This document shows, in pieces, positions 38,706-51,626 of a DNA stretch of 64,000 nt (positions are counted from its first letter, which is position 1; each line of letters opens with the position of its first letter). Below the pieces are notes generated by a model. It saw only the letters and a list, made by a program, of their open reading frames with translations. It had not been told where the DNA came from and searched no databases. This DNA is from an uncultured Eubacterium sp. (GTDB lineage Bacteria > Bacillota > Clostridia > Peptostreptococcales > Anaerovoracaceae): NCBI GenBank assembly GCA_946555345.1, contig CAMNSS010000015.1, positions 1-64,000 on the forward strand. The letters are read 5' to 3'. A program made the translations under genes and the position numbers.

Positions 38706-38732
38706 TTGGCACTCACCGATATTGAGTGCTAA
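38706..38732. promoter_or_regulatory. CIRCE element (HrcA operator) upstream of htpG
   Basis: TTGGCACTC-ACCGATATT-GAGTGCTAA; one mismatch to TTAGCACTC-N9-GAGTGCTAA. Confidence 0.88.
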
Positions 38733-38826: not shown

Positions 38827-38855
38827 TTGAATATATCAACCTGATCTGATATAAT
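38827..38855 (+). promoter_or_regulatory. Strong sigma-A-type promoter for candidate antisense RNA
   Basis: TTGAAT-N17-TATAAT. Confidence 0.75.
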
Positions 38856-38861
38856 TGGATC

Positions 38862-38948
38862 ATATCAGGAGAAAGTCGGAGAAACGGCTAACCGATTTTA
38901 GTCATGATGACCGCCACCTGGGTTCAAGCAAGGGCGGTCATTTTATTT
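38862..38948 (+). ncRNA. Candidate antisense RNA antitoxin (type I TA)
   Basis: Starts ~7 nt after the plus-strand TATAAT, ends at TGACCGCC..GGCGGTCA-TTTTATTT terminator (38908-38946) overlapping the 3' end of the small ORF on the other strand. Confidence 0.6.
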
Positions 38949-39006
38949 CCCGTACAATTCTGTACAGGATCAAAAGACAAATTACATCAAATATGTATTC
39001 TGCCAT
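38938..39006 (-). CDS. Candidate small hydrophobic type I toxin, 22 aa: MAEYIFDVICLLILYRIVREIK
   Basis: AAAGGAGTGGTGCAT-ATG start; hydrophobic core plus charged tail; stop codon inside the shared stem-loop. Not in the ORF track (too short). Confidence 0.6.
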   Translation of the reverse strand: MAEYIFDVICLLILYRIVREIK

Positions 39007-39085
39007 ATGCACCACTCCTTTCCCTAACCCCAACAGAGCCCTAAAAAGTGTGGCAAACCGCTTTGCTCATTATCCTGATATTTCC

Positions 39086-39114
39086 AAAATATCCTTTTAT
39101 TTCATATTTGTCAA
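39086..39114 (-). promoter_or_regulatory. Sigma-A-type promoter for the 22-aa ORF
   Basis: Minus strand TTGACA-N17-TATTTT. Confidence 0.7.
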
Positions 39115-39125
39115 CTTTTTCCACA

Positions 39126-39268
39126 CAAAAAATCCCGACATGCCGTCGAGGATATAATTCACACCCTATCTTGCAATAGGGGGGTGCCCTGTTCCCCGCT
39201 TCTGCCTTCCACTCGATGGAGGCTTGACATCCACGATGGGAAACGCGGACTCCCAATGTCGTTACGTA
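39126..39268 (-). ncRNA. Candidate structured ncRNA, possibly 6S-like
   Basis: Extended -10 TGCTATAAT at 39275-39280 (+flank); several hairpins (GACAUUGGGA..UCCCA..AUGUC; GCCUCCA..UGGAAGGC; CCCUAU..AUAGGG); ends UCCUCGACGGCAUGUCGGGAUUUUUU. The 3' part resembles the 6S 3' strand but the length is short for 6S. Confidence 0.45.
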
Positions 39269-39474
39269 GGTTGAATTATAGCACCTCAACGCACATTTCA
39301 GGATCTATTGTTAGTTTATGCTTTTTTCAGCGAAATAACCAGTCGAATCGTTTCTATATTTTTGTTTCAGTTTTTCGCTAGGTTTATTATAAATTCAGCA
39401 TACTGATTTTGCAAGCATTTTCGTAAGGATTCCCAATATTTCCAAGCTGCCGGGATTGCAAGATTGCACTAGGC

Positions 39475-51323: not shown

Positions 51324-51511
51324 TTTAATCTTAACATATTTTTCCGGGATGTCAATTATTTTTTTGCAAATTTATTTTTTATCGGTTTTATAGAAAAGAT
51401 GTACGGGTTTTCAGATAAAAATGAAAAACGAAAAAATGGTTTTTGTTCCATAAATTTCCGTCTTGACAAATGCATCGGAAACATCTAGTATAGTATTGAA
51501 TTGAATATTAT

Positions 51512-51626
51512 GATCTTCAGGGCAGGGTGAAATTCCCGACCGGCGGTAAAGTCCGCGAGCGTGAAAGCGCATGATTTGGCGAAACTCCAAAACCGACAGT
51601 ACAGTCTGGATGAAAGAAGAGAAAAT
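51512..51626 (+). promoter_or_regulatory. FMN riboswitch (RFN element)
   Basis: ATCTTCAGGGCAGGGTGAAATTCCCGACCGGCGGTAAAGTCCGCGAGC..CCGACAGTACAGTCTGGATGAAAGAAGA; TTGACA-N17-TAGTAT promoter at 51463-51491. Confidence 0.96.

Follow-up and report, generated by a model that had tools for sequence, protein, structure and literature searches.

Within the window, by which we mean the whole 64,000-nucleotide stretch of DNA analysed, two small convergent genes lie between positions 38827 and 39114. On the minus strand, a promoter (TTGACA-N17-TATTTT, 39086-39114) is followed by a 75-nt leader (39007-39081) and an ORF for a hydrophobic peptide of 22 amino acids, MAEYIFDVICLLILYRIVREIK (38938-39006), the putative toxin. 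The leader contains the Shine-Dalgarno (SD) sequence of this ORF, AAAGGAG (39015-39021), which is predicted to be sequestered in the leader fold. On the plus strand, a second promoter (TTGAAT-N17-TATAAT, 38827-38855) precedes a putative antisense, or antitoxin, RNA of ~88 nt (38861-38948), with a 5′ hairpin, AGTCG-GAGAAA-CGGCT (38874-38889), and an intrinsic terminator (38908-38948) whose stem arms, TGACCGCC and GGCGGTCA (38908-38915 and 38933-38940), are followed by TTTTATTT. The toxin stop codon (38938-38940) sits within the 3′ arm of this stem. A first-pass annotation of the sequence had placed both promoters, the SD-preceded ORF, the stem, and the terminator at these positions, with the stop codon inside the stem and the RNAs overlapping tail to tail, and every one of these features was recovered. 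Its proposal that both RNAs share a terminator stem held in part: the stem is shared and terminates the plus-strand RNA, but the minus strand past it reads ATCATGACTAAAA, with no U-run. A U-run is present on the mRNA strand of the shared stem in some homologues; in the window copy, the stem is evidently a terminator for the plus-strand RNA alone. A 30-bp palindrome, CCTGATCTGATATAATTGGATCATATCAGG (38840-38869), covers the −10 element and start of the antisense promoter and was not seen in homologues.

Promoter matches in the window were not above chance (7 found against 4.3 ± 2.3 in shuffles, in a 3-kb scan), and the case for the locus therefore rests on conservation. A DNA search of the same genome located two identical further copies on contig C11, 40,160 bp apart, which encode MAEYIFGVICLVILYRIVKEIK and have the same antisense layout. 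Judged by the translations of the neighbouring genes, these copies reside in a prophage, with a very large protein whose C-terminal region is M23-like on one side and a tail-type protein on the other. The 12.9-kb stretch around them is 100% identical (L006/L007, G000:C11:54000-72000 and 94740-112740), which points to either a prophage duplicated in tandem or a repeat created by the assembly. Family-wide DNA and protein searches identified three homologous loci in Emergencia (genus g122, Anaerovoracaceae), a degenerate C-terminal pattern also matched Emergencia genomes in a scan of the genome collection, and pattern scans detected homologues on two IMG/VR phage contigs. Several candidates were discarded: three of five matches from one pattern scan were attributed to chance, as were both matches to the leader 17-mer in viral contigs, and a match in genome G370 from the family-wide search had no ORF. 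A DNA search of phage records with the window locus returned nothing. The homologues (same-genome prophage, Emergencia, and IMG/VR contigs) have in common with the window copy the antisense RNA, the two promoters, and the stem shared by the RNAs. Promoters were found at the matching position for 19 of 19 antisense starts (6.4 expected) and 16 of 18 mRNA starts (4.4 expected), and this conservation supports the convergent layout.

The peptide itself is also conserved. Against its homologues, closest pairs excluded, the 22-aa ORF had a pS of 0.2-0.67 and a pN of 0-0.125, and pN was low between the window peptide and the prophage copy. As pN is far below pS, the peptide is, by this comparison, a real and constrained product under purifying selection. 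Conservation of both kinds that the first-pass annotation had singled out, a synonymous-biased ORF and retained promoters, was thus found. The window peptide had no match among Pfam (PF16935, Hol_Tox, included), NCBIfam, or PHROG models, in agreement with the earlier statement that it could be assigned to no described family, and peptide searches of phage and plasmid records yielded nothing of its type. An amphipathic helix was considered for the window peptide and rejected, its hydrophobic moment being no greater than in shuffles.

We then examined the chromosomal setting of the window copy. A 6S RNA lies directly upstream of the module (39128-39307, minus strand; Rfam RF00013, 71.9 bits), and the module is bounded by the 6S terminator on one side and, on the other, by the htpG promoter and its CIRCE site. 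The CIRCE operator (one mismatch, 38706-38732) is upstream of htpG at ~280 bp from the htpG start; it is much closer to htpG in relatives, and in several members of the genus 6S RNA comes directly before htpG. The 6S RNA-htpG junction of six genus relatives contained no such module, holding only the 6S terminator plus, in some, a CIRCE operator before htpG. Because these six junctions are without it, we conclude from the sequence comparison that the module was inserted at this junction in the window genome.

Covariance searches across Clostridia, as had been suggested in the first-pass annotation, proved productive. A first model, built on the antisense RNA plus the ORF, recovered about a dozen more family loci at E below 1e-6. 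In these, the antisense RNA and the leader of the toxin mRNA are retained but the encoded peptides differ, being of DYEIL types, MRITITFGRVRITIYIKK types, and RVTVTYSKGVLRITIS types. Near-identical leaders, up to 92% identical between loci with unrelated peptides, serve the mutually unrelated EYIFDV, DYEIL/Hol_Tox-like, and RITI types. Some of the other peptides on the scaffold gave sub-threshold PF16935 matches, including one DYEIL-type peptide (E 0.0042). A second model was built on the antisense RNA alone. The window antisense RNA, which was part of the model, scored 59.7 bits (E 1.9e-10), and the window's own genome held five loci at E below 1e-4. At the class level, weaker matches were obtained in 28 of 154 sampled genera; those in G708 and G683 had no matching 5′ ends and were rejected. 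Another Clostridia genome carries a five-copy tandem array encoding 22-aa peptides such as MEYVYIIIFMIVFITLIESIKK. In this array (L160 2170-3734), the modules are ~400 nt apart, with EYVY/DYMY-type peptides. A further module in the window's own genome (L169, G000:C2:186333-186426) encodes a Hol_Tox-like peptide, MQMYITLSELLAFGMFVIALTALLTSKR, with a sub-threshold PF16935 match.

The stems of the antisense RNA covary. Among 25 antisense RNAs aligned with MAFFT, compensatory changes were present at 9 of 16 pairs and at 8 of the 9 terminator-stem pairs, though these counts are partly fitted, the loci having been collected with the antisense RNA model. No shuffle reached the covariation score. In the terminator stem (columns 56-64), all nine wobbles are G-U on the antisense strand and none on the mRNA strand, and of the 25 sequences, 11 have A-U and another 11 have G-C at one pair of the 5′ hairpin (columns 20/35). 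A comparison with Rfam type I models, also suggested earlier, was unsuccessful: Rfam contained no match for the window locus or the family loci, and its ratA and BsrG models had none in the window. At one class locus, the BsrG model matched below threshold (E 0.0014), on the other strand from the antisense match.

The exchange of peptides bears on a different function that prophage residence might suggest. The peptide could be a phage lysis accessory, either holin-like or a holin regulator, with the opposing RNA tuning lysis timing only and the window copy being a captured phage gene; the prophage copies do sit among tail, holin, and lysis genes that point the same way. We regard this as improbable, given that the module has retained its own promoter, antisense gene, and terminator, that unrelated peptides occupy the same RNA scaffold, and that the stand-alone copy at the 6S-htpG junction has its elements intact.

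We next compared the 5′ ends of the two RNAs, of which that of the mRNA lies outside the covariance model. Over ~30 nt, these ends are alike as same-sense sequences, with a mean local score of 14.6, whereas comparison with the complement gives 6.4. In the window, both RNAs begin with AUAUCAGGA (39081-39073 for the toxin mRNA), and the corresponding sequence at both ends of most family loci is GUCAAGAGGA. The two ends of each locus resemble each other more than they resemble those of other loci, a result matched by 0 of 20,000 permutations. A toxin mRNA that reads through would cross the antisense gene, and its 3′ end would therefore complement the antisense 5′ end and with it its own 5′ end. 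In the window, the 3′ partner of the predicted closing helix, complementary to the 5′ end of the antisense RNA, is at 38862-38893 (minus strand). Predicted 5′-3′ duplexes averaged −38.4 kcal/mol, whereas shuffling the 5′ ends gave −16.9, and cognate duplexes were stronger than non-cognate ones (P below 5e-5). The window duplex reached −25.5 kcal/mol, compared with −12.4 ± 2.7 when shuffled (0 of 2000 shuffles). Complementarity between the 5′ parts of the two RNAs gave no such signal, cognates equalling non-cognates (P 0.28 and 0.31). Contact between the antisense 5′ part and the leader exceeded shuffles only marginally, and in the window only (P 0.03); not being cognate-specific, it was dismissed as the main contact.

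In 39 of 43 family cells (39:4) and 28 of 33 cells at the class level (28:5), a transition difference between the two ends preserves G-U pairing on the mRNA strand, with 18 of 19 family loci leaning toward mRNA-strand G-U and none leaning the opposite way; the loci share ancestry, so that counts are not independent and the P values overstate the case. Such an asymmetry is expected if mRNA pairing is selected and unexpected for mere DNA repeats. It speaks against a reading in which the inverted end similarity is no RNA feature but marks the terminal repeats of a small, MITE-like mobile cassette. Imperfect ~30-bp inverted repeats do flank the module at each of the 20 family loci tested as well as at most class loci, and the module was inserted at a new site in the window genome. 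With the promoters outside the repeats, no target-site duplication seen by eye, and G-U biases that DNA-level repeats would not produce, we find a cassette end highly unlikely. Prediction and covariation instead indicate a cognate long-distance 5′-3′ helix of the hok/AapA type in the full-length mRNA. What is new here is the same-sense 5′ ends, which would enable 5′-3′ closure of a read-through toxin mRNA. Such closure, the multi-copy prophage family, and the swapping of toxins were all beyond the view of the first-pass annotation.

Of 37 loci, 14 have an intrinsic terminator on the mRNA strand immediately past the antisense promoter, against 0.8 expected, which gives the long toxin mRNA an end. 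None was detected at this place in the window copy, so a long mRNA could run toward htpG. This missing terminator, together with the finding that 0 of 48 other genus genomes searched hold a recognisable DNA match, is what a decayed, non-functional chromosomal remnant might look like. Its ORF, promoters, stems, SD, and 5′-3′ complementarity are, however, all intact, and pN against the prophage copy is low, making decay an improbable explanation.

Several described systems share parts of this architecture. BsrG/SR4 and TxpA/RatA, type I systems of Bacillus subtilis prophages (Rfam RF01412, Pfam PF16935 Hol_Tox), also have convergent genes with a 3′ overlap, a prophage location, and a small hydrophobic peptide, and the Rfam BsrG consensus likewise has a 5′-3′ closing helix. 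The window module differs in lacking a Hol_Tox, BsrG, or ratA match, in its 22-aa peptide (BsrG has 38 aa; PMC8309996), and in its shorter antisense RNA, whose 5′ end copies that of the mRNA. Fst/par of pAD1 (RNA I/RNA II) is alike in its convergent layout, its toxin 3′ end at the antisense terminator, and its SD-sequestering leader. The Fst peptide, however, carries a PxxxG motif in its helix (PMC8309996), whereas the window peptide lacks this motif and has no P and no G, and Fst has complementary direct repeats where the window RNAs have 5′ ends alike in sense. The first-pass annotation had likened the locus to the Fst/TxpA-RatA layout; the convergence stands, and the Fst likeness fails on these two points. 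Because the defining features of Fst and of TxpA/BsrG were tested and were absent, we do not claim membership of either group. In hok/Sok and aapA/IsoA, the toxin mRNA is inert through long-distance 5′-3′ pairing, as predicted here, and activation of the closed mRNAs by 3′ trimming is established for hok and aapA (PMC6733600); by analogy, trimming might activate the window mRNA. Unlike in those systems, the two genes here converge and the 3′ partner faces the 5′ end of the antisense gene itself, and the peptides and RNAs are unrelated. In its predicted control, the module thus resembles hok/AapA/BsrG fold-back and not Fst direct repeats. The CD2517.1-RCd8 group of Clostridioides difficile, compared by description, shares with it Clostridia hosts, prophages, and convergent overlapping genes, with toxins of 50-53 aa (PMC6563280, PMC7699646).

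The locus combines a small hydrophobic peptide under selection with an antisense RNA gene that, at the sequence level, has its own promoter and a terminator that overlaps the toxin gene. Conservation lends good support to the type I toxin-antitoxin reading put forward by the first-pass annotation, and we consider it likely that this is such a module under double control, by mRNA self-closure and by antisense RNA. From this anatomy we infer transcription, toxicity, read-through, RNase III action, and an order of events. A 22-aa membrane peptide would be translated from an mRNA that conceals its SD in the leader fold, while a convergent ~88-nt antisense RNA would stop at the terminator overlapping the toxin stop codon. 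The longest form of the toxin mRNA would read through the antisense gene, and its 5′ end could then pair with the complement of the antisense 5′ end, leaving a closed, untranslated mRNA. Silencing would come in two layers: in the first, the mRNA itself would hide its SD locally and close 5′ to 3′ once complete; in the second, the antisense RNA would pair with the whole 3′ region of the mRNA and bring about decay, probably by RNase III. The RITI-type peptides are not typical membrane helices, and they count against this reading.

More broadly, we lean toward an undescribed Clostridia-wide type I RNA scaffold in which a conserved leader and antisense RNA carry swapped toxins. In such a scaffold the antisense 5′ end would equal the mRNA 5′ end, and a single read-through 3′ sequence could be claimed either by the mRNA 5′ end, giving a closed and inert form, or by the antitoxin. 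This would tie antisense control and mRNA self-closure to one sequence, with a bearing on how the toxin is kept silent, and would add to the prophage-borne type I systems a group with a peptide unmatched in the libraries searched. It also offers a testable rule for finding type I modules when the encoded peptides are too variable and too short to be caught by protein searches: seek the antisense scaffold and matching 5′ ends. With its solitary copy flanked by 6S RNA and the heat-shock gene htpG, the window would offer an example of a phage-type module that has settled at a housekeeping junction.

Two minor observations were also made. The short RITI-repeat peptides (e.g., MRITITFGRVRITIYIKK; L118, L120, L126, and others) resemble cationic beta peptides, unlike the usual type I helices. 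Elsewhere in the window, an FMN riboswitch is present at 51509-51625 on the plus strand (Rfam RF00050, 111.1 bits).
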